In this document: positions 22,730 through 59,267 of the stretch, piece after piece | Layout of the letters: each line of letters starts with the position of its first letter | How positions within the stretch are numbered: position 1 is the first letter of the stretch | Notes under the pieces: generated by a model | Told to the model about the DNA's origin: nothing | Databases searched by the model: none | Seen by the model: the letters and a program-made list of their open reading frames with translations, nothing else | Program-made: the position numbers and the translations under genes | DNA from: Desmodesmus armatus | Taxonomy: Eukaryota; Chlorophyta; Chlorophyceae; Sphaeropleales; Scenedesmaceae | Assembly: GCA_007449985.2 (NCBI GenBank) | Contig: VIIQ02000627.1 | Coordinates: forward strand, 1 to 64,000 | DNA length: 64,000 bases | Direction of reading: 5' to 3'

Positions 22730-23863
22730 ATGATGCGGTCACATCTGATCAGCACTGTGCAGACTTTGGCTGTGCAATCGTCCCACCAGCTTCTGTCTTG
22801 TCTAGTAGCATTGAACAACTCACCGTGGCCCTCTCAGCTTCGGCAGCATCGCCTTCAGTGCAGCAGCTTCAGAGCTGCCCACACAGCTTCTGCTGCTGCA
22901 ACTGGCCAGCAGCAAAATAACTCAGAGGTGTCAGCAGAAGTTGACTCTAGAACAACACAAGGAACAGACGGAACGGAACAGACTGTGCCACAAACGCAAC
23001 ATGCAGGAGGGCGCAGCAGCACCCTCACAGAAGAGCAGCTTGCCACACTGTTTGACGATGACCTGCAGCAACGACTAAGTGTGGCAGCTCAACGGGCAAC
23101 ACAGCAGAGCAGCAGCAGCAGCACCGCAGCACCTGATGCTCAAGCTACCTCAACTTTCGAGAAATTGCAGCATCAGGAGCTTCCTGCAACTCCAGCCAGC
23201 ATACCTGCAGTTGCCCACAGCAGCACTACCAGCTGGGACCCGCAGCAAGCAGTCAGGAGTGCTTGGCAGCAGCCTGCTGCTGCTGCTGTGGCTGCTCTGC
23301 CTGGTGTCTGGAACCCACTGGTGTCTGCTGACCCTTGGGCACCACTGCCCTCACCGGCAGCTGCTAGGTGGGTGGCGCTCAGATGGCTGTGGGGCGGAGT
23401 TGAGTGGTTGTGGGCTGGGGGCACCAGTAGAATATGCACAGGGTTGGGGCATTGATCGAAGGGGCGAGGAGGCGGGAATAGGTTGTTGATGGTGATGAAG
23501 GTTGTGTGCAACTGCAGCTGCAGAACTTGCTTCCTTGGATTGCAGTTGCTTGCTGCTGTTGATGGAGGTGCTTCTGGTCGCTGTTCACAGCCGCATTGCA
23601 TTCATGCCATGCTTGTCTGTAGTCAGATGCAAACCGCTGTGACTTGTGTACTCTGATAGGTGTTGCTGCTGCACTGCTGTACTGTGTTGCAACTTTCAGG
23701 CGTCAGCTGCCCCAGCAGCTGCAGAAGCTGTTGATACAGGCTGGGGTGTCACAAGAGCTGGCAGCAGCAGCACTGCAGGCTGCAGGCAGCATGGACACCA
23801 CAGCCGCCACTGCTGCTGACACCACCACCCAAGCCAGCAGCAACAGCAGCAGCAGCACTGATG

Positions 23864-23910
<47 letters not shown>

Positions 23911-24293
23911 TGGGCCAATTCTCACAACAAGCGGCTCTTTGGCAGCCCTGGCAAGCAGCCTGCACAGGAGCAGCTGCTGCAGCAACAGCAAAGCAAGCAG
24001 CGGCAGGAGCAGCGCCAGGAGCAACCGCCACAGCAACACCAGGAGCAGCAGCAGCAGCAGCAGGGTTTTGTGTGGTCTGTGCTGAGCAGGGTTCAGACCA
24101 AGCACCTTGTTCAGCTGCTGGATGAGTGCCAGGCACCCAGCTATGGAGACAAGCAGGTGCTGCTCAGGCGCCTGGTCATGCTGCTGCAGCAGCAGCAACA
24201 GCAGCAGCAGCAGCATTTTGTGCCAGATCCTGTGCAGGAGCATCAACATGACATGGGCACAACACCGCAGCAGCAGGTCGCCAGTTTGACACC

Positions 24294-24335
<42 letters not shown>

Positions 24336-24955
24336 CGTGGCAGACGGCGTTAATCAGCAGGACCAGCAGGACCAGCAGCAGCAGCAGGTAGCGGAGTCAC
24401 CTTCAGGTGTGTCGAGCTGGCAGGTCCCTGAGGTTGCTGCTCAGCAGCGGCTGCTGGCTGCTGTGCTGGATGTGCAGCAGGTGGGAGGCTGGCTGCTGGA
24501 GGCACGCGCACAGGATGTATGTATTATCGATGTCAGGTGAGGATGGGTGAGTGAGGGTGGGTGGAGATAGGGGTCAAGTTGGGGTTGGACATCGGGGCGT
24601 GGGACAGTTGCTCATGAGCGTTGAGTTGGGGATAGTGGGCAGGGCCGGGCAGCAGACCCACCTGGTGGTGGCCACTAGGCTGGTATCAACTGTTGCAGTG
24701 TGCTACCGCTGCAACGCCAACACTAGTTTTTTTGCCAACACTTGCTGAACCCTGTTTGCATGTTTTCTCCTGTGCGTCCTGTGCGTCCTGCAGGGGCAGG
24801 GCCGGGCAGCAGACCCACTTAGTGGTTGCCACGGGCCTCAACCAGAGACATACACGGGCACTGGCAGAAGCAGTGGCTTGGCAGCTGCAGCAGGCAGCAG
24901 CGGCACACCTGGAACAGCACCACCAGCAGCAGGGCACACTGCTGCCGTCAATGTC

Positions 24956-24991
<36 letters not shown>

Positions 24992-27281: not shown

Positions 27282-29211
27282 GGTCCGAGTCACCAGTGGG
27301 GCCAGGGTCTGTCTGTGGGCCAGTTTACTGCTGCGCTGCAGGCGCTGCCGATGCAGCAGCGGGTGAGGTGGAAGTCGGTGTACCCTGAAATAGGCTCAGG
27401 GGCGAGGGGCAAGGTCTACCAGGCGATCAACCTTGAGACAGGTGAGGGCAGAAGCCTGATGGATGTAGGGATTGACACATCTGGCTCAGAATGTTTGGCA
27501 AGCCTAGGGACTTTCACAGGCAGCAAAATGGCAAAGGCGGCAGTAACAGCTGTGGTGGCGCTGTTGCTTAGGCTCAAACTAGCTCCTTTGCGTGTGCAGG
27601 ATTGAACATATGAGCTCAGGTCATCAACCAATAGTGAGAGAGCCACTGACACTGCTGCTACCGTCACTGCTGCCGTGCTGCTGCTGCTGCTGTCAGGTGG
27701 CCAGCTTGCTGTGAAGGTCGTTCCGCTGCAGCACTTCATGGGTTCAGGCCATGATCTGGCCCTGAGGAGGGAGGCCCTGGTGCTGGAGCTGGCAGCAATG
27801 CAGGACTATGAACACCCACACCTGCTGACCATGCAGGTGAGCAACTGCTACAATAGCTGGATAGGTTCCATGCTGTGTAGTTGTTCTTTCAATCTGTGTA
27901 GTTGTTTGAAAGCTGCACCATCTATCAAGCCTCCTTCCCTGCACAACTGCTGTTGTGCTGAAACATGTTGCTGATAAATTTGTCATGGCTTGATTCTGAG
28001 TGGCTCCCAGCCAATCTTACCTGATGATGGCCACACAGTCCAGGTCATATGATGCTGTGGAACCATGCCTGACGTAACATGTCTGCCTTCTGTCCCTGCA
28101 GGGCTTCTATTACCGCTCCAGTGGCAGCAAGCCCCGCCTAGAGATATTCAGTGAGCTGGGTTGCTGCCTGGAGGACCTCATGCCTGACATGGAGGAGAAG
28201 GAGGCAGTGCTGGGGCTGGGGCTGGTGCAGAAGGTTATGGCATCGCTGCTGGGGGCTCTGGACTTCCTACATGGACGGGGGGTGGTGCACAGGTGAGAGG
28301 TGTGCACTGGCAGACGGCACTGGTCTGGACCCTCCCCTGGACCCTCCCCTGACGGGTAGTGCAAGGCATGCCTTGTGGCCAAGCAGAAGTACAGGCTGCA
28401 TATGTGCAAGTGTATTGCGCTAGAAGGGGGGAGGCAGTGCTGGGGCTGGCCCTGGTGCAGAAGGTGATGGCAGCACTGCTGGGGGCACTGGACTTCTTGC
28501 ATGGACGAGGAGGGGTGGTGCACAGGTGAGAGGGCTGGGGAGGGGGGCAGGAGGGTGAAGGGGGAGGTGGAGGGAGAGGGAGAGGTGGAGGGGAAGTGAA
28601 ATGGAGAGAAGAAGGTGTGGCGTGCTGGCCCTGGTGCAGAAGGTGACGGCAGCTCTGCTGGGGCTCTGGAGGGTTTTTTGATGGGTGAGGGTTGGTGCAC
28701 AGCTGCAGGCGAGGGTGTGTGTTGGTGGTTTGGGAGAGACTCTAGGTTTTGAGGCCTGCTTTGACATGCGGTGAGCGCCTCTCCACCCTCCTTGTGATCC
28801 TGCATGCTTGTGAGCCACAACAACATATCGGCTGCTAGCGCCTTGGGTTCTTTCAGTCCTTCCGTCTTCTCCTTTGCCCTGTAACACTCACAATTTCCCC
28901 CTGCCCTCACACTCGTTCCCTCCCCCTTCCAGGGATGTGAAGCCTGGCACGTTGTTGCTGTTGGCTCCCCGGCAATTTCAATCTTTCTCCTTTGCTCTGT
29001 TCCAACCCCTTTCCCCTGCCCTCTGTATCTTTCCTGTGCTTCAGGGATGTGAAGCCTGGCAACATTGTTGCGGTTGGCTCCACTGGCACCTTCAAGCTCA
29101 TTGACATGGACAGCATCTTCCACACACAAACATGGGACGAAGAAGACGACGAAGACGAGCAGCAGCAGCAGCAGCAGCAGCAGCCAGGCAGCCTTCCAGG
29201 TGTTGAGATGC

Positions 29212-29251
<40 letters not shown>

Positions 29252-30430
29252 CACGCCTGTCGGTGTTTTGGCAGCAGGTGGAGGCATGGGCACCCCCTGT
29301 CCCGCCTCCCTCTCAGCACACCTAGCAGCGGGAGCAGCATGGCAGCAGCAGCAGCAGTCGCAGCCGCCGCAGAAGCAACAGCAGCGCCCCGCTGCTGCTG
29401 CTGCTGCTGCTGCTGCTGCCGCTGCTGCTCCCCTCACTGCGCTGAGCTTTGCAGGCACTCCTGAGAACATGGCCCCAGAGGTTGCGCCCACGATGTTGCA
29501 GTTGCCGCTAGTGTTGTGGGACTTGTTTCCACTGAGGGCAGGTCAGCAGGTTGCCAGCAGCACTGCGGTGGCACCGGCACAGGACATATGGAGCTGCGGG
29601 ACCGTACTGTTCGAGCTGCTGACAGGGAGGTGAGCCTAGAAGTTTGGTGTTGTTCAGCAGTTGGTAGGCTGGATTGGGTGGCATGCCGCATGAAGTCCAC
29701 TTCAGGCCAGCACATGCATGTCTGTCTTGCCAACCCCCGTGTGGCAACTTGCATGATGCCCCTGCCCCTTGCCGTGACATTCCGCACGCCTTTTTCCTCT
29801 CCTCCGCCCTCTCCCTCACTTGCCACAGGTCCCTGTTCAGTGGCCTTGAGTCTCCTGAGGCACTGTACCAGCACCTGTGCAAGTTGAGGGGAGGGTCTGA
29901 GGAGATGCCTGCGATGCCCAAGGGCCTGGACAGCGAAGTGATGGAGGTGCTGGAGGCATGCCTGCAGGTCGGTGGGCTGCCGTTTGAGGAAATCGTCCCG
30001 GCGGGCGGGGGGGGGGGGGGGGGGGGGAGGGCTATGCTGAGCCAAGGGCCTGGTGGCATTGAGGTTTTGGAGGTGCTGGAGGCCTGCCTGCAGGTGGGGG
30101 TGGGGGGGAGGGGTGTTGGGTGGGCTGACCTAGGAGGGGGGGCTGTCAGGCAGTTGGCTGTGTGTGTGACACTTGGATGGATAGGGGTTACAAGGCCGCA
30201 GAGCGTCATACATGTGTTTGAGGGGCGGGGGTTGCTGTGCTGACATGGCGGCATGCCTGCAGGTTGGTGGGCTGACTTAGGAAGGGGTTGGGTTCTGTGC
30301 TGAAAGTAACCCGTGCTCATCCTGCTACCGTTGCTGCTGCTGCTGATGGTTGTTGCTGCAGGTTGACCCTGCCGCCCGTCCCACCGCCAAGCAGCTGCTG
30401 GCAATGGACTTCTTCAGCAAGAGCTACTGA
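27282..30430 (+). CDS. Protein kinase (Ser/Thr-type fold) with DMD in place of DFG; 5' end unresolved
   Basis: Exons: first (5' end uncertain, open from 27,087)-27441; 27697-27836; 28102-28292; 29045-29629; 29829-29966; 30362-30430. All junctions are phase-consistent. Motifs in order: glycine loop IGSGARGKVYQAI; VAIK equivalent GGQLAVKVV; alpha-C RREALVLELAAMQ; catalytic loop VVHRDVKPGN, split by the exon 3/4 junction; KLIDMDS, where DFG is replaced by DMD (metal-binding Asp kept, Phe and Gly lost); GTPENMAPEV (APE motif); DIWSCGTVLFELLTGR; VDPAARPTAKQLLAMDFF. Between DMD and APE there is a ~110-residue Gln/Ala/Pro-rich activation-segment insertion. The HRD Asp, the Lys and the metal Asp are present, so activity is possible. 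Substrate and family are unknown. Introns 3 and 5 contain duplicated exon ends. Confidence 0.8.
28431..28702 (+). repeat. Two extra copies of the 3' end of kinase exon 3 in intron 3
   Basis: 28,431-28,525 repeats 28,201-28,292 (GAGGCAGTGCTGGGGCTGG to GTGGTGCACAG, with GTGAGAG donor) with a 3-base insertion, encoding the same ALDFLHGRG...VHR. 28,624-28,702 is a third, degenerate copy that also ends GGTGCACAG. Confidence 0.85.
28933..28971 (+). repeat. Extra copy of the 5' end of kinase exon 4 with its acceptor
   Basis: TTCCAG/GGATGTGAAGCCTGGCA, followed by a near match to GTTGCTGTTGGCTCC, repeats the acceptor and first ~39 bases of exon 4 (29,045 onward). It lies 112 bases upstream of the true exon. 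Confidence 0.85.
30044..30262 (+). repeat. Extra copies of the 3' end of kinase exon 5 in intron 5
   Basis: 30,044-30,093 repeats 29,920-29,966 (AAGGGCCTGG to GCCTGCCTGCAG, then GT). 30,244-30,262 (GCATGCCTGCAG/GTTGGTGGG) is a shorter third copy that also preserves the donor and first intron bases. Confidence 0.8.
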
Positions 30431-32993: not shown

Positions 32994-35900
32994 TTATGAC
33001 CTGTGGTTGTCCTCCTTGACCAGCATCTTCAGCAGGTCACCCTTGGGCTGCCTGGGGCCAGCAGCAGTAGCAGCAGCAGCAGCCTTGGGAGCCTCAGCAG
33101 CCTTGTGGGCCTCGGCCTTGGGTGCCTCAGCCTTAGGAGCGTCATCCTGCACCCTCAACTCTGCTACCTTGGGGCCGTTCTTCACCAGGGGGGCATCAGC
33201 CTTCACAAGCTCAGCTGCCTTTGGTGCTTCAACCTTGGGTGCTTCAACCTTGGGTGCTTCAACCTTGGGGGCCTCAACCTTGGGGGCCTCAGCCTTAGGG
33301 GCCTCAGCCTTGGGTGCCTCCTTGAGCTTGGGGGCCTCAGCCTTGGGGGCATCAGCCTTCACAGGCTCAGCTGCCTTGGGTGCATCAGCCTTAGGAGCCT
33401 CCACCTTAGGCTCCTCAACCTTGGGTGCTTCCTTGAGCTTGGGAGAATCAGCCTTAGGTACATCAGCCTTAGGTGCCTCGGCCTTCACAGGCTCAGCTGC
33501 CTTAGGGGCCTCAGTCTTGGGTGCCTCAGGCTGCTTCACCTCGTCCTTCAGCTGGGGAGCCTCAACCTTGGGGGCCTCAGCAGCCTTGGGGGCCTCAGCA
33601 GCCTTGGGGGCCTCAGCAGCCTTGGGGGCCTCTACCTTAGGGGCCTCCATCTTAGGTGCCTCAGCCTTAGGAGTGTCATCCTGCACCCTCAACTCCGCAA
33701 CCTTGGGGCCGTTCTTCACCAGGGGTGCCTCAGCCTTCACAGGCTCAGCTGCCTTAGGTGCCTCAACCTTAGGGGCCTCAACCTTGGGTGCCTCCTTGAG
33801 CTTGGGGGCTTTAGCTGTAGGTGCATCAGCCTTGGGTGCCTCGGCCTTAGGTGCCTCAGCCTTCACAGGCTCAGCTGCCTTTGGTGCCTCAACCTTGGGT
33901 GCCAGGGCCTCATTCTTGAGCTCATCTCCCTCCTGGGGGACGTTGACCTTTGGGGCCTCAGGTGATTTTGGGGTTTCCGGGACCTTGGGTGCCTCAGGCT
34001 GCTTGGGTGTCTCTGGGACCTTGGGTGCCTCAGGCTGCTTGGGTGTCTCTGGGACCTTGGGTGCCTCAGGCTGCTTGGGTGTCTCTGGGACCTTGGGTGC
34101 CTCAGGCTGCTTGGGTGTCTCTGGGACCTTGGGTGTCTCAGGCTGCTTGGGTGTCTCTGGAGCCTTGGGGATTTCAGGTGTCTTGGGTGCCTCTGGCTGC
34201 TTAGGGGTCTCTGGCTGCTTGGGGGTCTCAGGGGCCTTGGGGGTTTCAGGTGTCTTGGGTGTCTCAGGCTGCTTAGGGGTGTCTGGCTGCTTGGGGGTCT
34301 CAGGTTGCTTGGGGGTCTCTGGCTGCTTGGGGGTCTCGGGGGCCTTGGGGGTTTCAGGCTGCTTGGGTGTTTCAGGGACCTTGGGTGTCTCGGGTTGCTT
34401 GGGTGTCTCTCCCACTGGCAGGAAGTTGTTGCTGGACAGCACATCACCGGTGTTGGCTGATGTCACGGCATTGCTGCAGAGGGTAAAGGAAAAGCACGCA
34501 GGGCAAGGCACCGTTGTGGTTTGGTTCGTATGCAAGGACCAAATTTCCTCTGCAAGTTGATGGAAGATGTGCACATGCTGCTGCTGCTGCTGCTCACCTT
34601 TGACCCTGCAATCTTGAGCAAACCAATGCAGTTGCAGCTGCCGCTCGCCTTAGCACGATGCCCTCCCCATCAATATTCAGGTAACTTTTCTTGCTGCTGC
34701 TATTGCTGCTGCTAATGCTCATCACCCTTGCCTCTGCCTCATGCAACACAACACAGCTGCAGCCGCCCCTCACCTGAGCACAATGCTGTCCCCGTCAATG
34801 TTAGTGAGCTTGATGTCCCAGGGCAGCTCAGGCAGCCTGCTGGCCTCCCACGCAGCACCAAAGTTGGTGCTCATGCCCCTCCACGCCTCAGCACCAGCCT
34901 GCAGAACAGTGAGTTGGTCAGTCAAACAGTAGGTGTCAAGCAAATCGTCAGCCACCTAGTTGGTGCTCAGGCCCCTCCACGCCTCAGCACTAGCCTGCAG
35001 GGGGAGTGATTTGCGCAGTCAAACAGGCATCAGGCAAGTCGTCAGCCAGTTAGCCAGCTAGTTGCCGCTCATGCCCTCCACGTCGCAGCGTTCAGACATG
35101 TCTGAAAGCTCACGCAATGCCTCCCCTGCAAGCTGGTGCTGTACAGTAGCGGTCAGTAATATTGTCACAGCAGCCAGCCAGCCAGGTAGTTGGTGAGTCA
35201 GTCAGCCATATGCTTGATAAGCCAGTTGATCAGCCAGCCCAGCCAGCAGGCTGCTATCAGCCAGCCCGTTGGTCAGCTGGTGAGCCTTTCCAAGGGAGCA
35301 AGAGATGAGGCAAAGTGGGTTGGTGATAAATGACCATGCAAATACCCGCCACTTGTGCGAGCATGCTGGGCGACATGTGTCATTCACACTGTTCAAGTTC
35401 ATGCCATGAAGGTACCTAGGATGTACCTCAAACACCAAAACTGCAGGTGTCACAAAATCAAATGACCGCGGGTTTACTTCAAAAACCTGGCCTTCAGGTC
35501 CGGTGCTTGAAGTAAGTCGTGCGCGCATTTGACCTTGTGATACCTGCAAATTCGGTATCTGAAAGTGACCCCGGGTACCTGAAGGGCATGCCACTTGGCA
35601 GCAATGCATGCTTAAGTCCAGCACCTGTGGATGAACACCGTTCCGTACATTTTAGTAATACTGGATTTTTTGCCAGACAATCTGCTTTGTAAGACAGACA
35701 GGAGTGGTTGCAGGAGCGCCAGACACTCAGTGTCAGGGGCAGGGCGTGTGTGACAGCACCACACTTGCCACACTTCCGCCATACACCACAAGGATTCCCC
35801 TTGCTATCAACTCTCATGTGCCACATGGCATCAGCACAGCCTACATGCAAGCCCAGTCCTGTGTGAGTAGTTCAGCTGCAGCACAGTGCACGCATCATCA

Positions 35901-41600: not shown

Positions 41601-41993
41601 GTCGCAGCAGCAGCAGCAGCTGGAGCGATTGCCGCAGCAGTGGCAGGCCCTGCAGCAGCAGATACACCTGGCCCAGCAGCAGCAGCAGCAGCAGTCACCT
41701 GGCCCAGCCAGCACTGCAGCAGCAGGAGCAGCAGCACTGCAGTCACTGCTGCCTGACTTGCTAGGAGCCCAGCAGGCGGCTGCAGCAGCAGCAGCAGCCC
41801 CCACCACTAGCAGCTTTGACAAGCCGGAGGTTGCTGCTGCTGCAGGGGTCAGCAGCAGCAGCAGCAGTGCAGCAGACATTGCAGCAACCAAGCAGGAGCA
41901 GGCCGCACAAACAGGAGGGGGAGCTGCACCCCCCCGCGGCAGCAGTAGTTTCAGTCTGAGCGAGCTTGCCAGCAAGCTGCGCACCCAGCGTGC

Positions 41994-42026
<33 letters not shown>

Positions 42027-43641
42027 TCGCGGCGGCACACAGCCCAGCACTGGTAAGGAGGCCACATCAGCTTTGCAGCAAGCAGCGGCAGCAGCAGGAG
42101 CAGCAGCAAGCGTGTCACTGCCAAGGCTGCAATTGGACATCCAACAGCAGCTGACAGGGCAGCGCGACGCCGTTTCTGGTCAACAGCAGCAGCAGCAGCA
42201 GTTTGACTATGTCAGTGTCTTACAGCTGCTGCAGCAGCAGGGCGTAGGCGACCTGCCACCCCTTGCTGCTGATGATGCTCCTGCTGCTTCTTCTCCTGCT
42301 GCTGAACAACGGTGGTCTCCTGCTGCTGCCGAGCAACTTTGGGCAACACAGCAGCAGCATCAGCAGCAGGCGCAGGCATGGCAGCAGCAGCGGCAGCAGC
42401 AGCAGAGTAAGCTGGTGCTGGAGCAACTCATGCAGAAGCTGCGACCGGCATCAGCATCGCAGCAGCAGCAGCAGCAGCAGCAGGGTTCAGGGGCTGCTAC
42501 AGACCTTGACCTAGGGTTGAAGGCTTTGCTGTCTGATACACCAGCTGTAGAGAGCGAACTGAATGACATCCTTGCACGCAGCACTGCAGTCTGGCAGCCC
42601 CAGCAGCAGCAGCCCCAGCAGCAGCAGCAGCAGCAGCAGGAGCAGTTTGGGAAGGTGGTCCACACAGGACCGAGCAGCAGGAATGTGGATCTATGGAATC
42701 CAGATCTGGCCCCCTCCTACCAGCCCCCCCGTCTGATTGACCCCTCAGAGGAACAGGAGCTTCTAGAAGCCAGGACACAGGCCGCTCGGGAGCGGCAGCA
42801 GCAGCAGCAGCAGCAGTGGAGTCCGCACTCCGAGGATTCCACCTCATCCCTGCAGCAGCAGCAGCAGCAGCAGCAGCAGTGGCAGGCAGAGAGCCGTCAG
42901 CAGCAAGCAGCCGCCGCTGCTGCTGCTGCTGAGGCTGACGAGGCTGCTAGGCTTGCTGCTGAGACTGAGGCTCGGATGCAGGCACTGCTGGCTGGGGAGA
43001 TGGAGTGGGACACACCAGCTGGTCAACCCAGCCGCAAGAAGGGCAAAGCAGAGGTGAGCAGGGATGTGTGTGTTTGTGTGTGTGTGTGGGGGGGGGGGGC
43101 GTCGTTGGTTAGTGCATGTTGCAGAAGGGACCGAATTGGGGGTCCTAGGGGGTGGTTTACTGCGTGGGACAGGGCCACACCTGCCAGCCAACCCAGCCGC
43201 AAGAAGGACGAACGGAGGTGAGTAGGGGATGACAACTGCCGAACATTTGCTGACCAAATGCTGGGGCGAGTGGGCGGGGCGGAGGGGCGGGTGTCAACCG
43301 CACCGAGAGTGACTCTCTTTCAGTCTTTTTGGATGGTTGCTGGATATATCCTCAGGGTCGGTGCATGAGTGGTGAGAGCCGACTGCAGGTGTTAGGGTGT
43401 AACCAGACTACTCTGGGGGCCCAGGGCTGGCCTGCTGTGCGTCAGACTTTGAGGCGCTGAGTCTAGCCCCCCCCCTCCCCTGTTGCCCTGTGTGATGTGT
43501 TGCCTGTGGACAACACCTCAACTGGTACCTTTGTTTCCAGCATGCTGGCGCCTTGTTCCCTTTCTCTTGACTTCTGAGTAGTTCTTCTCGACTTCTTGGC
43601 AAGACTCCGAAGCTCCAACTTGACGCCACTGACGCTGCGGC

Positions 43642-43673
<32 letters not shown>

Positions 43674-44697: not shown

Positions 44698-44732
<35 letters not shown>

Positions 44733-46912
44733 GGGGCGCCTCGGCAGTTGCGTGAGGTGCAGCTGCCGCCGTTGTGCTCGCTGGCGCGCCTGGCTGGCTT
44801 GTTGGGTGTGCCGGTGCAGCAGCTGGAGGAGGTGCTGAAAGATCAGCTGGGAGAGGAGGTCAAGTCAGGTGTGTGTGTGTGTGGGGGGGGGGTGTTCAGA
44901 TGGGGTGGGGTGAATTGGGGCGGTACCTCAACTCTGCGGTGGGGTGGCTCTTGTTTGGGTGTGCGGGTGCAGCAGCTGGAGGAGGTGCTGAGGGAACAGC
45001 TGGGAGAGGAAGTCAAGTCAGGTGCGGATTCTGGCACGGTTTGTTCTGCATTGCCAGCCCAGCTGGTATCAACTAGCTACTCGTGGAGAGCATCTGGTGT
45101 TTTTGCATCATGCAAACCAATCAGTGACTGTACCCGAGGGTCGGTGTGCTGCTGCTGCTGCGGCCACTCGAGAATGACGGGAGAATTGTTGCTGACAGAA
45201 CTGCTGTTTGTCACAACTGTCACAACTTTTAATTCGTGCAGAGGAGGACGTGGTGGCTTTCGAGTCTGCTGAGCTCGCCGCGCTCGAGTTTGGCGTGGTG
45301 CTGCTGCCGCAGCTCGAGTTGGCGTGGTGCTGCTGCCGCAGCAGCACCACCTGAGGACGTTGCAAAATATTGTTTTCTGACTGTACTGCCTGCCCGTTTT
45401 GTCACAACTGTCACAGCTGCTGCTGCGTGCAGAGGAGGACGTGGTGTCTCCCGAGTCTGCTGAACTCGCTGCGCTCGAGTTTGGCGTGGTGCTGCTGCGG
45501 CCACCTGAATTGGCGCAAGAACTGTTCCTGACTAAACTGCCTGTCTTGTCACAACTGTCACAACTTTCAATGTGTGCAGAGGAGGACGTGGTGTCCCCCG
45601 AGTCTGCCGAACTCGCTGCGCTCGAGTTTGGCGTGGTGCTGCTGCGGCCCCCTGAAGACGTCGCAACAGAGCCTCGGCCACCGATCGTGACGGTGATGGG
45701 CCACGTGGATCACGGGAAGACCAGCCTGCTGGACGCACTGCGATCGAGTAACGTCACAGCAGGAGGTGAGTCATTGAGTGGGGCTGCTATTGATACGAAT
45801 TATTCATCATAGATCGTTTTCATTTCAAAGTGTAAGGACTGCTGCTCGGGCGGGAAAGGGCGAGCGTGGGGGGGGGGACGCCACGGCAGGACCAGCCTGC
45901 TGGATGCACTGCGGTTGAGCAACGTCACGGCGGGAGGTGAGTCAACAAGCGTTTCTGCTTTCAGTTGATGTGGACTGCTGTTCTGAAGGGGGTTGATGGG
46001 CAACGTGGATTACGGGAAGACCAGCCTGCTGGATGCACTGCGGTTGAGTAACGTCACGGCGGGAGGTGAGTCATTGAGCAGGGCTGCTGCGTTGTCAACT
46101 GCATGCTGCCGAGGCCACTGGAGTGTGGTGCACTTGACCCTCAGCAGCAGCCTGACCAGTGGAGGTGGGGCCTGATTACGTCAGTGGAGGTGGGGCCTGA
46201 TTACGTCAGCGGAGGTGGGGCCTGATTACGTCAGTGGAGGTGGGGCCTGATTACGTCAGTGGAGGTGGGGCCTGATTACGTCAGCGGAGGTGGGCTCTGG
46301 GATGTACACATCAAAAGAGTTGAGGTGTGCTTCCCAGAGTCCTGCATCCTTATCGTGATCAGCCCCCAGCTCCACTGGTCAGGCTGTTGCTGTGGACCGT
46401 GGCTACACAGGATGCTTACTACAACTGGTTTCTTGCAGGGGGCCGGGGGTGTCTTACACCTAGCTGCTTTCAACAGCAGCCGATACTTAGGGCTGCTACT
46501 CTTGGGAGTCCCCGGAAAGGGAAGGGGGAGAAGCACACTTTGGGAATCCTGCCTGCCCTGCTACCTCCACAACATACGCCAGGCAGACAGACCAAGTCAT
46601 TACTACATATAGAACGTCTGACGCCCGGGTGGCGTCAGTACTGCATCGATTCCGTCCTACTGTTTTTGATGCACAGGGTGTACCCTGGATTGTGACTGGG
46701 CTGTCACAGGCGGCTACTATTAGTTATCTGGGTGACGCTTTGCTGATTGCAGGGCTGCTGCTGCTGGACTTGCTGCTGCTGATGGCCCTTTACGGCCTTC
46801 CAAGGCCCTGAAACGTAGCGCTTTCAAGATTGCAACTACATGTGACACGATCGAGCACCATTATGGCACTGAACTGGTCGCTCACACTCTGGGCTCAACT
46901 GCAAGCTTGCAG

Positions 46913-46943
<31 letters not shown>

Positions 46944-49900
46944 GAGTGAACAAAGCTGCTGCGCCCTTGCATTCCTATCCTGTGCCTGCGTCGCTGATGG
47001 GCAAAATCCAGCTAAAGTCCTTATGTCTTCGGCACGCGCATCCACAGCTGACGGACTGTTAGTCACCCATTACTCAACCCCGCACAAGTGCACAAGTTTG
47101 TCTCGCAGCCTCTACCCAAGGGCCCCATGAACATTTTTTTCATTCTTATCTTTAATCACCTTTTCCCTGCCCTGTTGTGTACGGTGCACTTTGCACGTGC
47201 AAGGAAATTGCGTCCATGAAATTAGTGACGCTATTCAACCAGACTATTGCGGCACACAGGCGTGCCCCAGCCGTCACCGACAAATACGTACGTACATCGT
47301 GGCATTATACCATTTGACGTTCTCGTAACCAGCAGCTGCAGCAATGTTGGCGTTTGCTACCGCAGCATCCATACCCAGCATACAAAGGACATTATTACTT
47401 CTTATAACCGCAACATTCCTGAACGACTAGCCAAGGCCTGCTGTGGCACCTCTTGGACCTTACTGCAGACCAATTTTGGCAGTCATGTGTGTGGGTGTGA
47501 GACCCGTGCGCTGTATTGGCATCTATTCCTAAAGGAATCGATGCAATACTAGCCCCCCACAGAGTTTGCCGCGCAGCTGATGCTTCTAAATGTACTTTTT
47601 GACAAGGCTACCAACTAGGGAGGTGGTAAAATGCCATGCAGACACACCAAATAGAGCAACGTCATTACAAGAGGTGAGCAGGGGGATAGCAACTTGGGTC
47701 GGGAGTTCCACCCCACGACGGGAGTTTAAACTTGCAAATTTGCAATCCAAACCTCGTCCAACTGTGCTGCCAGGGCCGCTGCAGTGTGGTGCCCTTGTGG
47801 GTTCAGCCCTGCTCACTACTGCTGCGAAGTGGCAGCCACTCAAACCATAATTTTTTTTAATTCAGGTTCCAGTTTTTTTGCTTGGCAGTGACAGCCAATT
47901 GAGCACGACAACGTGACCCTCAGCATCAGCTTGACCAGTCAAGGTGCGGGTTGATCACAATGAGGGTACAGGACTCTGGGATGTAGACTTCACTCAAGGT
48001 GTGCTTCCCAGAGTTCTGCATCCTGATCGTGGCCTGTCCCCACTTCCACTGGTCCGCTGTTGCTGAGGGATTGAACCCCTCCAAACTGATCGTCTCCCAG
48101 CCCCTCCTCACATCTTCCTGTGCAGGGCTGGCAGCGTCCAATCGTTGACGGTCTGTTCCACCCCTGCGTTGATACATGTGCCCCCCCCCCCCACCCCACA
48201 CCCCCCCCCCCCCCCACCCCCGGCAGAGGCTGGTGGGATCACCCAGCACATAGGTGCCTTCGAGGTCACCATGCCCGGCAGCGGCAGCACCCTCACCTTC
48301 CTAGACACACCAGGCCCCTCCGGCCAATGCTCAGTAGCCCCCTCCCCCAAATTCTCACAGAGGCTGGTGATGTCGTGCAGGCTTTCAATTACCTGCTGAT
48401 TGTTCTACCTCAAAAGTATACCGGCTTGCCTGCCCCCCCCCCCCGCCCCTTCACACACACAGAGGCTGGTGGCATCACGCAGCACATCGGTGCATTCGAG
48501 GTCACCATGCCCGGCAGCGGCAGCACCCTCACCTTCCTAGATACACCAGGACACGCAGCATTCGGTGCCATGCGCGCCCGCGGAGCAGCAGCAACCGACA
48601 TTGTGGTGCTGGCTGTCGCTGCTGATGACGGGGTCATGCCTCAGACAAGGGAGGCGTTGGCACATGCGCGAGCAGCGCAGGTGCCCATTGTGGTGGCGCT
48701 GACAAAGTGTGACCTCACACAGGTGAGAGTGAGAGATCCTGTGAGGTGTGAGCATTCCGGTGGGTGCTGGTGAGATCTGGATCTGGGCTTGATGTTTGCG
48801 TGGTAGGCAACGGGGCTGTATGGGTGCCAGCTTGACAGCTGCAATAGGTGTAGCTTGAGGTTTGGGGGTGATGCCTCAGACGAGGGAAGCTTTGGCACAT
48901 GCACGAGCAGCGCAGGTGCCCATTGTGGTGGTGCTGACAAAGTGTGACCACCCAAAGGTGAGAGTGAGAGATCCCTGGTGGTTGGGACATTCAGTTGGGC
49001 ACCGTGGTGAGAATGGTGCGGGGCATTGATGTCGCATGTGGTAGGTTGCAATGCTCTAATGTCCGCTTGCTAGCTGTAGCAGTGGGAGTGGAAGAGGGGT
49101 GATGCCTCAGACGAGAGAGGCGCTGGCACATGCAAGGGCAGCACAGGTGCTAAGCGTGGTGGCGCTGACAAAGTGTGACCTCCCACCTCCCTGTGCTGTG
49201 CCATGCTGTGCTGTGCCCAGGCCCGTCCTGACCAGGTGAAGCTGCAGCTGTTGAACGAGGGCATTGAGCTGGAGGAGTATGGTGGTGACGTGCAGTGTGT
49301 GCACACAGCGGCCAGGGCTGGACTGGGGCTCAAGGAGCTGGAGGAGGCTCTGCTGCTGCAGGTGGGTGTGGGGGTGTGGGAGCCTGTATGCTACATGTCA
49401 GCTGTAGCACGTCATGGGGTTGGAGGACCTGTGTAGGGGCGCAGGGGGAGGGATGCGCGGCGAGGAAGGGTGCGCGCCGGGGGGGGGGGGGGGGTCCCGG
49501 CCACGAGAGTGTAGGTGCGGCTGTGCGTGCTTGCCTTTTCCTTGTGCAGACCCCGTGTGACCAGGTCATTTGTACAGTTCTGGGGTTTCTTACGCCCAGT
49601 GTGTGCAGTCGATAGACATGTGCCGCCCCCCGCACTTGTACGGCTGATCCGTGGTTCTTCTCACTGCCTCCGCACCCACTCCACCCCCCAGGCTGAAGTA
49701 ATGGAGCTTCAAGCCCCCCGGGACGTCCCCGCTTCCGGTGTTGTCGTCGAAGCCCAGCTCTCCAAGGGCCTCGGCGCCGTGGCCACCGTCATCCTAAAAC
49801 GCGGCATCCTAAAACCCGGGGACCCCCTCGTCGTCGGCACAGAGCACGGCCGCGTCAGGGTCTTGCGCAACGGCTCCGGCAAAACCCTGGCGGCCGCCGG

Positions 49901-52900
49901 GCCGGGCCAGGCGGTGGTTGTGTCAGGGCTTAAGGGCTTACCGGCGGCTGGTGATGAGCTGATCGTGGTTGAGGATGAGGGCCGGGCGGCGAGGATGGCT
50001 GCTGCTAGGGCGGCTAGGGCTGAGGATTTCAAGCTGGGGCAGCTGTACAGGCTGCAGGCGGAGGCAAGGCGGCAGCAGCAGGCGGCACGCGCACAGGAGT
50101 ATGAGAGGTGGGTGTTGGGCGAGCCCCTGGTGGGGGAGCGGGGGGGGGGGTGAGAGGTGGGTGTTGGGCGAGCCCCTGGTGGGGGAGCGGGGGGGGGGGA
50201 CGTGGCACAGCAGCAGCAGAACTGCAGGTTCGGCGTCTATGGTAGAGTTATGGGGTGGGTGTGGTAAGCGTTGCTGAATTTCAAGTCATGGGAGGGGGGG
50301 GGCAGAGGACTTCAAGCTGGGGCAGCTGTATAGGCTGCAGGCGGAGGCAAGGCGGCAGCAGCAGGCGGCACGGGCACAGGAGTATGAGAGGTGGGTGTTG
50401 GGCGAGCCCCTGGCGGGGGAGGGGGGCGGGGGTGCAGCAGCAGCAGAACTGCAGGCTTGGCATCTATGGTAGAGTTATGGGGTGGGTGTGGTAAGCGTTG
50501 CTGTATTTCAAGTCATGGGAGGGGGGGGGGGGCGGAGGATTTCAAGCTGGGGCAGCTGTACAGGCTGCAGGCGGAGGCTAGGCGGCAGCAGCAGGCGGCA
50601 CGCGCGCAAGAGTATGAGAGGTGGGTGATTGCGGTTTTGTAAGGGGGGCTTGGGGAGGGGGGGGGATTTGAGGGGCAGCGCACAGCTGTACAGGCAGCAG
50701 GTGGTGGCAAGTAGACAGCGTCGCCCTGCAGGAAAAGTGCTTGTGTGTGTGTGGGGGGGGGAGTAGCAGGGCGGAGGACTTCAAGCTGAGGCAGCTGTAT
50801 AGGCTACAGGCAGAGGCGAGGCGGCAGCAGCAGGCGGCACGGGCACAGGAGTATGAGAGGTGGGTGAGCGTGGCTCTCCCTGCACAGGAGCCGCAATTTG
50901 CAGAAGCGTATCCAGCCTGTGAGCACGAGCTGCAAGGGAGTGGGGGAGAGGGCTGTGTGCAAGCGGGTTTTGGATCAAACTCAAACTCCTGATCTCCTGG
51001 AGTTTGAGTTTGATCCAAAACCCGCTTGCACATAGCCCTCTCCCCCACTCCCTTGCAGCTATTGGTCAACCCCTACCCCCCACCCATGACATTCTGTTTG
51101 GGTTGACGGCAGCTGCCAGCACAGTGCTAGTGCACTGCTGCCCCTTTTGTTCCTCAATTCGCCCTGCACAGGAGGCGCAAGCTGCAGCAGCACATCCTGA
51201 CGGTTTTGTTTGGACCACATCCCAGTCTCAACAACTGTCCGCCCCCCCCCCCCCCCCCAACCTGTCCTCACTGCCCCCCCACTGCTCGCCGTCTCTCCCG
51301 CTGCACAGGACCCGCAAGCTGAAGCAGCGCATCCGAGATGTCTTGACTCGCAACAAATCACACCCTCGCTCTGCCGTCACTCCCCCTCTGCCTGCACTCT
51401 CCCTCTCGTCTTACCCTTCCTCTGCCCTCATTGTCCCTGCACAGGAGCCGCAAGCTGAAGCAGCGCATTCAGGAGGTCGTGCAAGATACTTTCCTCTTCA
51501 ACACATATACTCACCCCCCCCTGTTGCCCTCTCCCTCCCACTGCACAGGAGCCGCAAGCTGAAGCAGCGCATCTAGGATGTCTTGACTCCAACACAAATC
51601 ACAGCCTCGCTCTGCCGTCACTCCCCCTCTGCCCTCACTCTCTCTCTCTGCTCTCACTCTTCCCCTTCCCTCACTCTCCCTCTTCCCTCACTCTCCCACT
51701 GCGCAGGAGCCGCAAGCTGAAGCAGCGCATCCAGGACTCCCTTCTTCACTCCCAAGGCAAACCACACCGCCGCTGTTGTCACTCCCCCGCTGCCCTCACT
51801 CTCTCTCTGCTCTCACTCTTCCTCTTCCCTCACTCTCCCTCTCCCCTCCCTCTCCCACTGCAGGAGTCGCAAGCTGAAGCAGCGCATCCAGGAGGCCGTG
51901 CAAGATACTTTCTTCTTCAACAGATATTCACCCCCCTCCCCTGTTGCCCTCACTCTCCCTCTGCCCTCACTCTTCCTCTTCCCTCACTCTCCCTCTCCCC
52001 TCCCTCTCCCACTGCAGGAGTCGCAAGCTGAAGCAGCGCATCCAGGAGGCCGTGCAAGATACTTTCCTCTTCAACACATATTCACCCCCCTCCCCTGTTG
52101 CCCTCACTCTCCCTCTGCCCTCACTCTTCCTCTTCCCTCACTCTCCCCCTTCCCTCCCTCTCCCACTGCAGGAGTCGCAAGCTGAAGCAGCGCATCCAGG
52201 AGATCAAGTCCAGCGGCATCAAGTCCCACAGCGCAGCAGACCTCAAGACCCTCCACCTACAGGCACACATGATGGACGAGGCTAAGCTACGAGCAGCAGC
52301 AGCAGCCAGCAGCAGCAGCAGTTTTGCAGGCGCCACAGACCCTGCCGATGGTGAAGCCACCACTGTCGACCCCTCCCCAGCAGCAGCAGCAGCAGCAGCC
52401 GCGGATGGTGCGGACGCAGACAGTGAGGGTGCTGCTGCTGTTCTGCCGCCGGACGCTCCCACCGTCACTTTTATCGTGAAGGCGGACGTGCAGGGCAGTG
52501 TGGAGGCAGTTACAGACGCCATAGCAGCAGCAGCAGCTGGCCGTGCAGCAGTGCGGTTTGTATTCACTGGCGTGGGTCCTATCAGCGCGTCTGATGTCCA
52601 CCTTGCTGCTACAACCGGCGCTCGCATCATCGCCTTTGGTGTTTCGGCGCCGTCTGGCGATGTGGAGGTTGCAGTGCGCAGCAGCAGGGTCGAGATCCTC
52701 CGCCATGACGTCATTTACCATCTGTTAGATGAAGTGACGTCAGTTATAACTGCTGCGGAGGCCGGGGGTGCGACTGGTCCGGCAGGGACGTCAGAGGAGG
52801 TGGTGGGGTCAGCACTAGTGTTGGCGGTCTTCCCTATGATCAAGAATAGGCAGGAGGTTGGGAAGGTAGCAGGGTGTAGGGTTCAGGAGGGCAGCTTGGG

Positions 52901-53111
52901 TTCTGGTGCTGGGGTGGTGTACAGGGTTTTGAGGGAGGGGCAGGTGGTGTTTGAGGGGCCGCTTGCGAGCCTGAAGCAGCAGCGCAACAGCGTGTCGGCG
53001 GTTGGGAAGGGGAATGAGTGTGGGGTGGCGTTGGATGACGGGACCTTTGGTGACTACCAGCCGGGGGATGTGGTGCAGTGTGTGCAGCGGCGTACCGCAC
53101 GCAGCAGTTGA
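38634..53111 (+). CDS. Organellar (probably mitochondrial) translation initiation factor IF-2 with giant Gln/Ala/Ser-rich N-terminal region
   Basis: Exons: 38634-38811, 39050-43053, 43678-43807, 44536-44868, 45580-45765, 48463-48722, 49221-49361, 49692-50107, 52172-53111; 6,588 nt, 2,195 aa, phases all consistent. The N-terminus ([20 protein letters not shown] ... RRGYRS) looks like a mitochondrial presequence. Exon 2 (residues ~60-1394) is almost wholly Gln, Ala and Ser, ending in a basic stretch. Residues ~1500-1548 hold an IF2-N-like helix-turn ([19 protein letters not shown]). GTPase: G1 GHVDHGKTS (~1589), G2 GGITQHIG, G3 [10 protein letters not shown]4 ALTKCDL (Thr where NKxD has Asn). 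Exon 8 is domain II ([20 protein letters not shown]); exon 9 holds domains III-IV ([42 protein letters not shown]). The factor would carry formyl-Met-tRNA to the small subunit. A plastid location is possible. Confidence 0.85.
43164..43217 (+). repeat. Extra copy of the 3' end of IF-2 exon 2 with donor
   Basis: GTGGGACAGGGCCACACCTG through CAGCCGCAAGAAGGACGAAC and GGAG/GTGAGTAGG repeats ~43,005-43,053 (GCCGCAAGAAGGGCAAAGCA, GAG/GTGAGCAGG). Both frames stay open through the join, so either donor could in principle be used. Confidence 0.85.
44068..44109. repeat. Hairpin in IF-2 intron 3
   Basis: Two 17-bp arms (GGTTCCACAATCTGTCC and GGACAGGTTGTGGAACC, one mismatch) flank an 8-base loop. It is isolated, with no coding role visible. 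It may be the remnant of a small inverted-repeat element. Confidence 0.7.
44951..45021 (+). repeat. Extra copy of the 3' end of IF-2 exon 4 with donor
   Basis: The segment repeats 44,799-44,868 (TTGGGTGTGCCGGTGCAGCA to GTCAAGTCAG/GT). The encoded [22 protein letters not shown] is conserved with a few substitutions. Confidence 0.9.
45242..45579 (+). repeat. Two extra acceptor-side copies of IF-2 exon 5
   Basis: Exon 5 (from 45,580) begins AGGAGGACGTGGTG after CACAACTTTCAATGTGTGCAG. The same acceptor plus ~70 exon bases also occurs at 45,242-45,310 and 45,433-45,505. All encode EEDVV(A/S)[16 protein letters not shown]. The upstream intron stretch (ACTGCCTG, then CACAACTGTCACA) is repeated too. 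Confidence 0.9.
45886..46065 (+). repeat. Two extra donor-side copies of IF-2 exon 5
   Basis: 45,886-45,936 and 45,994-46,065 repeat the end of exon 5 (GGGAAGACCAGCCTGCTGGA to GGAG/GTGAGTCA). The second includes a modified G1 motif, with GHVDHG changed to GNVDYG. Together with the acceptor-side copies, this exon has three versions of each edge. Confidence 0.9.
46157..46297. repeat. 25-bp minisatellite in IF-2 intron 5
   Basis: Five complete 25-bp units (CAGYGGAGGTGGGGCCTGAT plus TACGT) start at 46,157, 46,182, 46,207, 46,232 and 46,257, with a partial sixth at 46,282. Apart from one T/C position they are identical. Confidence 0.95.
47926..48249 (-). other. Possible - strand exon or element fragment within IF-2 intron 5
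   Basis: The - strand encodes [20 protein letters not shown], then [13 protein letters not shown] and [14 protein letters not shown]. This alternating hydrophobic pattern looks like real beta-rich protein. A second, related fragment on the same strand lies at ~46,300-46,400 ([20 protein letters not shown]), 1.65 kb away. I do not recognise the family. It could be a nested gene, an inserted element or a gene relic. Confidence 0.35.
48227..48325 (+). repeat. Extra acceptor-side copy of IF-2 exon 6
   Basis: The acceptor CGGCAG and ~99 exon bases coding [20 protein letters not shown], then [10 protein letters not shown], repeat 48,463 onward. The match ends right at the G3 motif (DTPG), where this copy diverges. 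Confidence 0.9.
48868..49184 (+). repeat. Two extra donor-side copies of IF-2 exon 6
   Basis: 48,868-48,957 and 49,098-49,184 repeat 48,627-48,722 (GTCATGCCTCAGACAAGGGA to GACAAAGTGTGACC), encoding [20 protein letters not shown] plus the G4 motif LTKCD. The first keeps a GTGAGAGTGAGAGATCC donor. The second runs into the acceptor of exon 7 without a good donor. Confidence 0.9.
50304..50859 (+). repeat. Three extra donor-side copies of IF-2 exon 8
   Basis: 50,304-50,390, 50,534-50,620 and 50,772-50,859 repeat the last ~88 bases of exon 8 ([20 protein letters not shown], then [10 protein letters not shown]), each ending GAGTATGAGAG/GTGGGTG. The second and third are preceded by long G runs. A shorter 50-bp duplication of the donor flank lies at 50,105-50,201. 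Confidence 0.9.
50888..52171 (+). repeat. Eight extra acceptor-side copies of IF-2 exon 9, the last three starts 154 bp apart
   Basis: Acceptor plus GAGYCGCAAGCTGAAGCAGC occurs with exon starts at 50,888 and 51,172 (both degenerate), 51,309, 51,445, 51,549, 51,707, 51,864, 52,018 and finally 52,172 (the exon used). The last three are exactly 154 bp apart and near-identical. Each copy has a C/T-rich tract ahead of the AG. Confidence 0.9.
50928..51060. repeat. 133-bp near-perfect palindrome in IF-2 intron 8
   Basis: Two 62-bp arms (50,928-50,989 and 50,999-51,060) are reverse complements with a single mismatch (GGCTGTGTG against GGCTATGTG), around a 9-base spacer TGATCTCCT. In RNA it would form a very stable hairpin between the donor-side copies of exon 8 and the acceptor-side copies of exon 9. 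Confidence 0.95.
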
Positions 53112-55270
53112 TTGAGCTTTGTGTAGCCGGCAGTGGTACCCTTGCTGCAGCGGGATGGTGTGGTGCAGTGTGTGCAGCGTCGTGCCACATGCAGCAGCTA
53201 GCTTCAGGTGTGCCATGTTTCTAGCGGCGTGCACCACACAGCAGCTCCCACCTTGTGTGGTGCAATGTGTGCAGCGGCGTACCACACGCAGCAGGTAACT
53301 GAGCTGGTGTAGCCACGTTGTGTGTCCGACAACAGCGCATGTGTGTGTAGGGTTTGCAGTGTGTGCGTGTACAGGGTGTTGTGTTGCAGACAGCCTTACC
53401 GGACGTGTGCTTGCAGACAGCTCAAGTGAACCCTTGTCAAAGGCCAGGACACATACAGGCTTCCTGCAGGATGCATGGTGACTTGTGCCGTTGCCTGGAG
53501 CATGTGTGCTGGCATTTCCAGCGCAGTGTGGGGTGGAGAGTTCATTCAAGGCGGCAGTGTTTGAGCACCATGAGTCTGCCTGCAAACTGTGGCAATTCCA
53601 TGCAGCTCACACCGCCTGCTGATGTTCTATTGGCTGCCTGTGTCGTGATACGGCTGCCTATTGTGTGTCCCATCGGCCCCACTTGTGTTGTGTGTTTGTG
53701 AGTGAGCGCTGACTCAGCGCTGTTTGTCAGTGACAACTGAGAGGGTCTGGCGGCTTTGGCGTGGGCTCAGCAGCAGCAATGTCAGCAGGTGACAATGTTA
53801 TGGTTGCACAGCTCAATGTTGCATCAGCCGCACTGGCTTGGCTGCACCTGGCGCTGTTGCCAACCCCTGTGTCGCCCCTCATTCTTTTGCTGTGCAGTAT
53901 GGTATGGCTAGCAGGGTGCATCTCTTGAGCTGTCTTTCCCAGTCTTGAGGACGTTGGTTGGAATGTGCGCACAAATGGCCAGATGCTTTTTCTTGGTTGG
54001 AGTTGTGTGGCATTGGAGCCGCGTGCGGGTGTTGATTGTGTGTATGATGTTTGCATAGTGTTGTTTGTCAGAAAGCAGCTGCCCGCTGTTTTGTATTGGT
54101 CAATTTATTGAAACCAGGGTTCATGCAATCACAACTACACAGGAAGTGTGTCGCAATAACACACTAGTGTCTCATCACACCAGCATTGTTTCATCATGAC
54201 GCATGGGTGATTGATATTTTTGCTCACGCACCTCACTCTCAAACTCAGCTGGCCTTGCAGGCCTCAAAAAGTGAGTGCAACATACACACTGAACTGTAGA
54301 CGTCACAACTTGCCTACACCTGCATCACTCCTTTACAGTGATGTTGGAGGCCACTCAGTGTTCAGCAGTCTTAGCAGACACGTCTGAAACGTTAACCAGC
54401 CATACAGCAAGCATATGCACGGTCAATTTCATCCACTGCGACCTAGGGGCTCTCAAACAAGGTAAACACTGGATGAACATCACGACATGGCCACTGCTCA
54501 AAATTCATCATCACATCACAGTGCAACCCTATGCAGCCCAAACTGGCCTTCCCACATCGGCCATCGCCTGCCACCACCAGCCACACCCTGTACGTCATGC
54601 CGGTGGGGCATGGCTGCCTCTCTGCGCCCTCAACTGCCTCACAACACAAACCAAACTGCACGGCAAGGACAGCAGGCAAGGACAGTCATGAAAGTCAACA
54701 GGCAGCAGCAGGGAGACCCACTTGGTGCGCCACAAGGTGAAATTGTTGGTGGCTCAGAGAAAATACACCAGGTAGGGTTGCATGCCAGGCACCTTGCAAA
54801 TCCTCTCCGTTCTGTCGACACATGCCTTTCTGATGTGTCATCACTCCTGAAAGGGTTTAGTGCCCTCAAGCCATGCCAGTGCTGTTGGAAGTTCCCGAGC
54901 TGCCTGTGCACACCAACCTCTTTTGCCATGAGCAAGGGGCGGTTTTACTAGGTCTCACCATGCACAACCGGCAAAGTTTGGTCAGCACTGTTACAACACA
55001 TGTGCACATGCGTACATGAAGGTGTGAGCACCGGCGCAACCAAGCCAAGCATCTCGTGTGGCCCTGTCAACTGTGTGATTGCAACACAACTAGCGCACTG
55101 ATGGCTGCAGATGGCAACGGTGCAACATGCATACAACAGACAACTATGGTACTGGCAGGGCCACTGCCGGCATGCCAGGGAAGCCTGCGAGCTTTGACCA
55201 ACACCTTGTGCAGCGCACTCACCTCCTGAACGACCACCTGCCGCGAATTGTGAAACCAGGCCACAGCGCA
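53112..55270. other. Region between IF-2 and - strand F-box/LRR copy 9
   Basis: The first 190 bases hold two extra copies of the very end of IF-2 (53,150-53,205 and 53,253-53,300; GTGGTGCAGTGTGTGCAGCG, then CGCAGCAG). The remainder has no supported gene. From ~54,240 it resembles the 3' flank of - strand copy 10 (ACCAAGCCAAGC(A/T)TCTCGTG, near 55,040 and near 58,020). Confidence 0.5.
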
Positions 55271-59264: not shown

Positions 59265-59267
59265 TGT

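Follow-up and report, generated by a model that had tools for sequence, protein, structure and literature searches.

Repeated exon edges in introns of the green alga Desmodesmus armatus resemble the exon stuttering of chicken

The closest described relative of the repeats reported here is exon stuttering on chicken dot chromosomes (Hron et al. 2026, Genome Biol Evol evag038, PMC12954441), in which the lateral part of an exon, together with its donor or acceptor site, recurs as several direct and imperfect repeats in the adjacent intron while the exon itself stays intact. So far, stuttering is known only from chicken and a few rodent genes, its mechanism in birds being unknown. The source lies within 1 base of the exon border in more than 90% of chicken cases, the exon part measures 20-187 nt (median 36), and the median number of copies is 4. 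Neighbouring rather than distant introns are affected, intron-only stuttering also occurs, and length varies widely between individuals. GC-rich small dot chromosomes host 190 of the 236 introns, which makes them the commonest site in birds, although they were not a screening criterion. Here we describe the same anatomy in a 64,000-nucleotide stretch of the Desmodesmus armatus genome (assembly GCA_007449985.2, contig VIIQ02000627.1, positions 1 to 64,000, hereafter the window), where it affects the genes for IF-2, a kinase, RsfS and an expansin-like protein.

Three other systems share features with the algal repeats. Intron gain by tandem duplication of AGGT-containing exons (PMC4974935, PMC3443670, PMC2891723) likewise involves a local exonic duplication rescued by splicing, but it creates a new intron of the unit's length (PMC2891723), whereas the algal copies sit in an existing intron whose old junction is kept. 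Duplications made by break-end fill-in, Pol alpha-primase and end joining (PMC8355091) are also short, direct, local and made by repair, with no exon-edge focus in the abstract of that paper. Tandem exon duplication with mutually exclusive splicing (PMC9013439, PMC9741552) places exon-like copies in introns as well; there, whole duplicated exons are spliced in, while the algal copies are edges with one splice site. Our literature search, which left most subscription journals and bioRxiv preprints uncovered, returned the chicken paper as the only description of the phenomenon and no algal report. The first-pass annotation of the window, made from the sequence alone, had stated that it knew of no described system with this layout; the chicken paper supplies one.

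The window is part of a 193-kb contig (C597) of an assembly of 115.8 Mb in 831 contigs, whose GC content, CAG-rich coding sequence and TTTAGGG telomere repeats, together with the plant-like relatives of its IF-2, fit a green alga. Copies were located by self-alignment and by reading of 22.5-32.6, 34.4-39.1 and 44.4-53.6 kb, which bore out the annotation's claim that the four genes have one to eight further copies of exon ends in the intron next to the exon. The copies sit on the intronic side of the true splice site, downstream of donors and upstream of acceptors. The identity of IF-2 is given by PF00009, PF22042 and PF11987, and that of RsfS by PF02410 on 24693-25343; the kinase (Pkinase match on 28105-28290) and the expansin-like gene on the minus strand (Expansin_C match on 34774-34898) are named from matches below Pfam's cut-off. 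The features are as follows.

24637..24675, plus strand: RsfS, intronic copy of the exon start, 92% identical to 24794-24832, AG lost
24794..24832, plus strand: RsfS, source exon edge at the true acceptor, one acceptor-side copy
28200..28292, plus strand: kinase, source exon end with donor, junction 28292/28293, two copies
28430..28523, plus strand: kinase, donor-side copy 1 (match 0.91)
28624..28705, plus strand: kinase, donor-side copy 2 (match 0.81)
28931..28984, plus strand: kinase, acceptor-side copy upstream of the true acceptor at 29045
29045..29098, plus strand: kinase, source exon start, one acceptor-side copy
29912..29967, plus strand: kinase, second donor-side source, one copy (about 30042-30091) plus a remnant of 17 nt (near 30246)
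34853..34898, minus strand: expansin-like gene, source exon edge at the acceptor
34949..35053, minus strand: expansin-like gene, acceptor-side copy
36087..36133, minus strand: expansin-like gene, donor-side copy of the source at 36262-36308
43167..43227, plus strand: unnamed CAG-rich gene, donor-side copy of the source at 43002-43063
44955..45021, plus strand: IF-2, donor-side copy of the source at 44802-44868
45207..45515, plus strand: IF-2, two copies on the acceptor side, upstream of the 45570 segment; residues 1-22 of a relative's protein match three times
45694..45765, plus strand: IF-2, source exon end with donor, two copies reaching the junction (45882-45959 and 45994-46088)
48196..48314, plus strand: IF-2, acceptor-side copy of the exon starting near 48463
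48630..48722, plus strand: IF-2, source exon end with donor, two copies reaching the junction (48865 and 49096)
50021..50107, plus strand: IF-2, source exon end with donor, three copies reaching the junction (50305, 50535 and 50774)
50888..52056, plus strand: IF-2, eight acceptor-side copies (50888, 51172, 51308, 51445, 51549, 51707, 51864 and 52018)
52172..53111, plus strand: IF-2, last exon with the true acceptor; the exon start is also found in the relatives P0001 and P0002

The IF-2 gene could be examined free of any gene model by comparing the spliced IF-2 protein of a relative, P0021 (447 aa), with the window at E < 0.5. Four matches were found for residues 266-295, three each for 1-22 and 79-108, and two for 23-52, while 112-155 and 296-446 each matched once. 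Since the edge repeats are seen with a spliced protein, the IF-2 result is independent of our home-made gene models. The 12 residues that open the last exon, at the eight-copy acceptor, are common to P0001 and P0002, so this junction is old and the copies lie upstream of an old junction. That observation bears on the idea that the copies are relics of intron birth, either by tandem duplication of AGGT exons or by introner insertion, both of which put exon-derived or repeated sequence inside introns. A gained junction should be absent in relatives; at the one junction tested, the start of the IF-2 last exon, it is present in both, and the copies are multiple and lie inside the intron. Two spacers between copies were each found only at their own locus in the genome (in a search that skips simple repeats), so for these two we also reject a mobile element or introner. 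We therefore consider birth relics the least credible of the explanations weighed here.

The IF-2 intron at 50108-52171 also holds an inverted repeat (50920-51068), whose 70-nt arms are 94% complementary and separated by 9 nt; it lies past the array of donor copies and ahead of most of the acceptor-side ones. Elsewhere in the window, two related stretches, 46132-46395 and 47911-48068, match each other in both orientations, the first containing a 25-base tandem repeat, and are possibly a small element with inverted ends.

Occurrence beyond single genes was assessed with a screen modelled on the chicken study, in which exons were compared with introns over 50 gene models, 279 introns and 34 loci (16 of them chosen by family). 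Because the screen applied dust filtering and a 36-bit threshold and covered only the plus strand, its counts are not strictly comparable to those of chicken. Seventy-eight neighbour-intron matches exceeded 36 bits, in 35 of the 279 introns, 11 of these 35 being in the window. Introns shuffled in two-base blocks yielded a single match, of 20.3 bits, which places the recurrence beyond chance. As in chicken, the source lies at the exon border and the exon part measures tens of nucleotides (median 45.5, range 21-122). The border tendency is shared but lower, 47 of the 78 sources falling within 1 nt of the facing border and 62 within 10 nt; home-made models that call some copies exons may explain part of this looser fit. 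Copies per junction reached 7 in the screen (median 1) and 8 by alignment. The preference for neighbouring introns is also common to both organisms, with 78 matches per 207,820 exon-intron bp against 33 distant ones per 612,015; among the 20 distant matches listed, 15 come from locus L020, where array copies are called exons.

To place duplications relative to exon borders, we took 19 loci by position only (bases 20001-30000 of their contigs, one shortened by the contig end), dropped L008, a 1643-base satellite, and L001, which lies inside the window, and modelled a set of 18 loci plus the window (244 kb, 19 sequences). The gene finder trained on this set yielded 215 exons, 187 donors and 185 acceptors. 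Self-alignment returned 310 direct and 7 inverted local pairs (L001 and L008 counted) and, after filtering, 82 families in the 19 modelled sequences. These were classified under two counting rules, a family being called edge if any of its pairs is an edge pair, which favours edge, or according to its best pair only. The any-pair rule gave 42 edge families (22 on the donor side, 20 on the acceptor side), 11 interior, 3 mixed, 3 exon-exon and 23 intergenic; the best-pair rule gave 33, 16, 7, 3 and 23, respectively. The null placed units of the observed size uniformly and let them survive only if the added segment lay within the intron. Against it, 42 of 53 placed families were edge where 11.5 were expected (any pair), and 32 of 47 where 10.6 were expected (best pair).

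As some of the long 'introns' probably represent intergenic DNA, we reran the test with upper limits on intron length ranging from 400 to 2000 nt. At the 800-nt limit, 29 of 35 families were edge under the any-pair rule (12.9 expected, odds ratio 8.3) and 25 of 33 under the best-pair rule (11.8 expected, odds ratio 5.6), with none of 20,000 simulations as extreme under either. Over all limits tried the odds ratio ran from 5.6 to 7.4 (best pair) and from 7.6 to 15 (any pair). Detection power, estimated from 400 implanted duplications each (substitutions only, no indels), was 0.77 both at edges and at interiors. The border-focused duplication process suspected in the first-pass annotation is thus upheld by self-alignment, with 42 edge against 11 interior families, or 33 against 16, where 11-12 edge families are expected. 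Intron-only repeats, here the 11 or 16 interior families according to the rule and 15 interior arrays from Tandem Repeats Finder, are a further feature shared with chicken.

These counts have to be set against random tandem duplication seen through selection and ascertainment: exonic duplications would be purged, interior ones would decay out of sight, and edge ones would stay visible through their constrained exonic copy. Several observations suit such a process, namely the predominance of direct over inverted pairs, the slowing of similarity loss by exon constraint, and the one-sided layout, which selection explains. Indeed, extra DNA is spliced out only when donor copies lie downstream and acceptor copies upstream, so any surviving edge duplication should have this layout, which is therefore no evidence of a system. 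Random duplication leaves unexplained the edge odds ratios at equal detection power, and we hold it to be a possible explanation, though an improbable one.

Edge copies occur in 12 of the 19 sequences, window included, on contigs of many sizes (32 kb to 752 kb), where chicken stuttering centres on one chromosome class. Among complete introns no longer than 2 kb, 32 of 179 are affected, in proportions that differ with intron length: 3 of 82 below 300 nt, 9 of 47 at 300-500 nt and 20 of 50 at 500-2000 nt. Long introns are long partly owing to copies. Among chaperonin loci identified by Pfam (the best 8 of 50 matches), four show the layout (L044, L045, L046 and L047), the Cpn60 gene of L045 having both donor and acceptor arrays; the intron count for the same eight loci is 3 edge cases in 38 complete introns, a figure that omits introns running off the locus (including those of L045) and the L044 donor array, which the gene finder called exons. 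The phenomenon is patchy.

An assembly artefact could in principle produce such arrays, the lengths of G- and C-runs being unreliable in any assembly. The copies differ from one another in a graded manner, the affected contigs span 32 kb to 752 kb, and the two spacers tested are unique in the genome. A second haplotype in the assembly was also considered: the exon tested, L015:4707-4908, matched nothing in the genome beyond its own locus and its intronic copy, with no haplotig sign there. The analogous repeats of chicken PHF8 were checked against raw nanopore data in PMC12954441. We judge an artefact to be highly improbable.

How the copies change was examined in 41 exon-intron pairs or families covering 2254 exon nt. 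The 241 differences between exon and copy fall 68, 51 and 122 by codon position, and 110 are synonymous against 131 that are not, which fits a freely changing copy facing an exon limited to silent changes (by a hand estimate, about 28% of random changes would be silent). Among intronic copies alone (11 arrays, 43 copies), variable columns number 31, 24 and 62 by codon position; we read this third-position excess as snapshots of the exon at different times, although constraint on the copies would also give it. The first-pass annotation had reported conserved coding content, and this stands as far as the age of the copies allows, the IF-2 copy at 51549 carrying an in-frame TAG. Its further statement that copies always include the splice site has to be given up: GT or AG is kept in 46 of 62 copies (0.74), and the RsfS copy lacks its AG.

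That retention is the one point in favour of a decoy or alternative splice-site system kept by selection, which the annotation had put forward, and it is about what general divergence predicts, a hand estimate from 10.7% divergence at two bases giving around 0.80. The neutral codon-position pattern, the in-frame stop and the inner ends of donor copies, which show no consistent acceptor, all speak against selected decoys, and we regard this explanation as very unlikely.

Copies nearer to the exon are more exon-like. In 15 arrays hand-picked from the self-alignments, giving 91 ordered pairs, the nearer copy was the closer to the exon in 80 pairs by alignment score and in 74 (against 17) by identity, and none of 20,000 permutations was as extreme by either measure. 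In the eight-copy IF-2 array (50888..52056), likeness to the exon broadly rises toward the exon. Gene conversion from the exon offers another view of such families: the copies would be old and evolve in concert, and the edge bias would arise as only exon-anchored repeats are refreshed. Over 76 pairs, the exon parts of two intronic copies average 0.918 identity against 0.72 for their outer flanks, which conversion would account for, as it would for the silent-site pattern among intronic copies. It does not account for homology that ends at the splice site instead of spanning it, or for the near-to-far gradient; whole-unit tandems exist (L020 437-1015, L044 and the IF-2 copy at 52018), and those of L020 and L044 are likewise unexplained by conversion, which appears unlikely.

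Breakpoints adjoin G-runs, in line with the G-richness at donors suspected in the first-pass annotation. Read along the exon-to-intron strand, a run of at least five G lies within 25 nt before the inner end of the copy at 15 of 51 junctions, against an intron background of 8.5% (P 1.5e-5), whereas a C-run of at least five stands at the inner end of 1 copy in 72. Introns are enriched in G-runs over their first 80 nt and in C-runs over their last 40, which gives the two ends the same appearance to a reader moving outward from the exon. In donor copies, by ungapped extension, the match to the true junction ends at most 16 nt past the splice site at 20 of 23 junctions, and the presence of flanking intron claimed by the annotation holds only in part, many copies carrying little. 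Such ends near the splice site, and not at random points, tell against random duplication. Acceptor copies are two-peaked under the same extension, 10 of 17 matching at most 15 nt past the site and 7 matching 24 nt or more; chance agreement of splice consensus alone gives medians of 3 nt.

The explanation that we favour, and consider reasonably probable, is exon stuttering by recurrent template switching associated with G-runs and filtered by selection, and not decoy splicing. Small local duplications would recur, each unit starting inside the exon and extending past the splice site into neighbouring intron sequence. In the most likely course of events, a DNA strand being synthesised from exon to intron would meet a G-run, slip back or re-prime during repair inside the exon, and recopy the edge. 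Selection would presumably retain those events that leave the outermost original splice site working, the outermost sites being the ones that are spliced and the added DNA being spliced out. Only added DNA that is removed in this way would survive, and hence donor copies would come to lie downstream and acceptor copies upstream. The exon would act as a master, each round adding a copy beside it, while older copies would be displaced deeper into the intron and decay there as neutral sequence.

A more speculative variant, which we put forward tentatively, is a process that senses the splice site itself: structures coupled to transcription or splicing, such as R-loops or G-rich intron starts bounded by a bound splice site, would set the outer end of the copy, the introns of this alga would grow by repeatedly taking up dated snapshots of the exons beside them, introns would be a stratigraphic record of exon evolution, and the process would be common to algae and birds.

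Several results weigh against template switching at G-runs as formulated. The most serious concerns flanks: with gaps allowed, 26 of the 29 copies on the donor side and 13 of the 29 on the acceptor side have flanks no more alike than shuffled sequence, and flanks are unrelated despite 97-98% exon identity in L003 (9334/9559) and L010 (2740/2527). Another young pair whose flanks are unrelated is 2237/2494 in L046. Edge-only matches with unrelated flanks mean that a single simple backward slip is insufficient; a second switch near the splice site, inserted filler or two types of event is needed, which leaves the favoured explanation with its principal gap. Exon breakpoints show weak microhomology, with at least three G at 17 of 51 junctions (background 21.8%, P 0.04) and at least four at 6 of 51 (5.6%, P 0.07). 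Two of the 15 arrays run counter to the gradient (IF-2 at 45694 and one array of L017), and others are mixed, among them L010 and the second L017 array. The layout is absent from all eight kinesin loci (the best 8 of 121 matches; none in 34 complete introns), and a suspected kinesin duplicate at C55 proved on reading to hold no copy. The analysis rests on one assembly and on home-made gene models.

Two of the contrary results also lend support to random duplication. Among pairs of at least 94% identity, edge cases outnumber interior ones by 10 to 4 under the any-pair rule, with 2.6 of the 14 expected at edges, but the best-pair rule gives 7 edge and 8 interior. Tandem Repeats Finder, with units of at least 20 nt, returned 11 edge and 15 interior arrays where 8.6 of 26 were expected at edges, hence no clear excess. 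The scan of edges against interiors that the annotation had proposed, carried out here on 19 sequences, thus comes out in favour of edges by self-alignment and without clear excess in these arrays, and it is in this qualified form that an edge excess distinguishes the alga in our comparison with chicken. Units measure 115-291 nt in the 11 edge arrays but 20-33 nt in 11 of the 15 interior ones, the remaining four interior arrays overlapping edge-family copies; the edge excess therefore concerns long units.

Some further sequences of the sampled loci and the window deserve mention. A telomere-like, GGGTTA-rich spacer lies between donor copies of the chaperonin gene of L044 (2097-2420). Filler made by telomerase was considered as a general cause and rejected, TTAGGG occurring at 0.144 per kb in intron 5' halves and at 0.154 in intergenic DNA; the telomere repeat of this genome is TTTAGGG. 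In the Cpn60 acceptor-copy array of L045, a short palindrome stands at a unit boundary (about 1917-1945, minus strand). Locus L008 (C150:20001-29246) is a near-identical satellite with a period of about 1642 bases. The outer parts of the window (1-22500 and 54500-64000) carry an array of F-box/LRR-like paralogues (weak Pfam matches), several direct and several inverted, in which 6737-9932 and 16002-19233 are 91% identical. In paralogue pairs of at least 78% identity, the sole insert of at least 12 nt was 12 nt long, which made them uninformative for a before/after comparison. A 713-base direct repeat (58552-59264 and 61513-62225, 99.86% identity) is a very recent duplication, and a 526-aa reading frame on the minus strand (32994-34574) consists largely of repeats with units of 15-36 bases.

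Taken with the chicken description, the algal case displays most of the testable features of stuttering and carries it to a further branch of life. The new elements are the alga, the edge bias, the strand polarity and the gradient; strand-polar G-run adjacency, neutral decay and the near-to-far gradient, all measured here, set the alga apart in our comparison with chicken. Stuttering in birds was tied to odd chromosomes; its occurrence in an alga, and in housekeeping genes such as those for IF-2 and chaperonins, indicates that it is not peculiar to birds. It also points to a system in which mutation accumulation, strains and RNA can be studied quickly. Through stuttering, introns gain length and alternative splice sites arise ready-made, and the graded copies may make it possible to reconstruct earlier states of an exon from the intron beside it.

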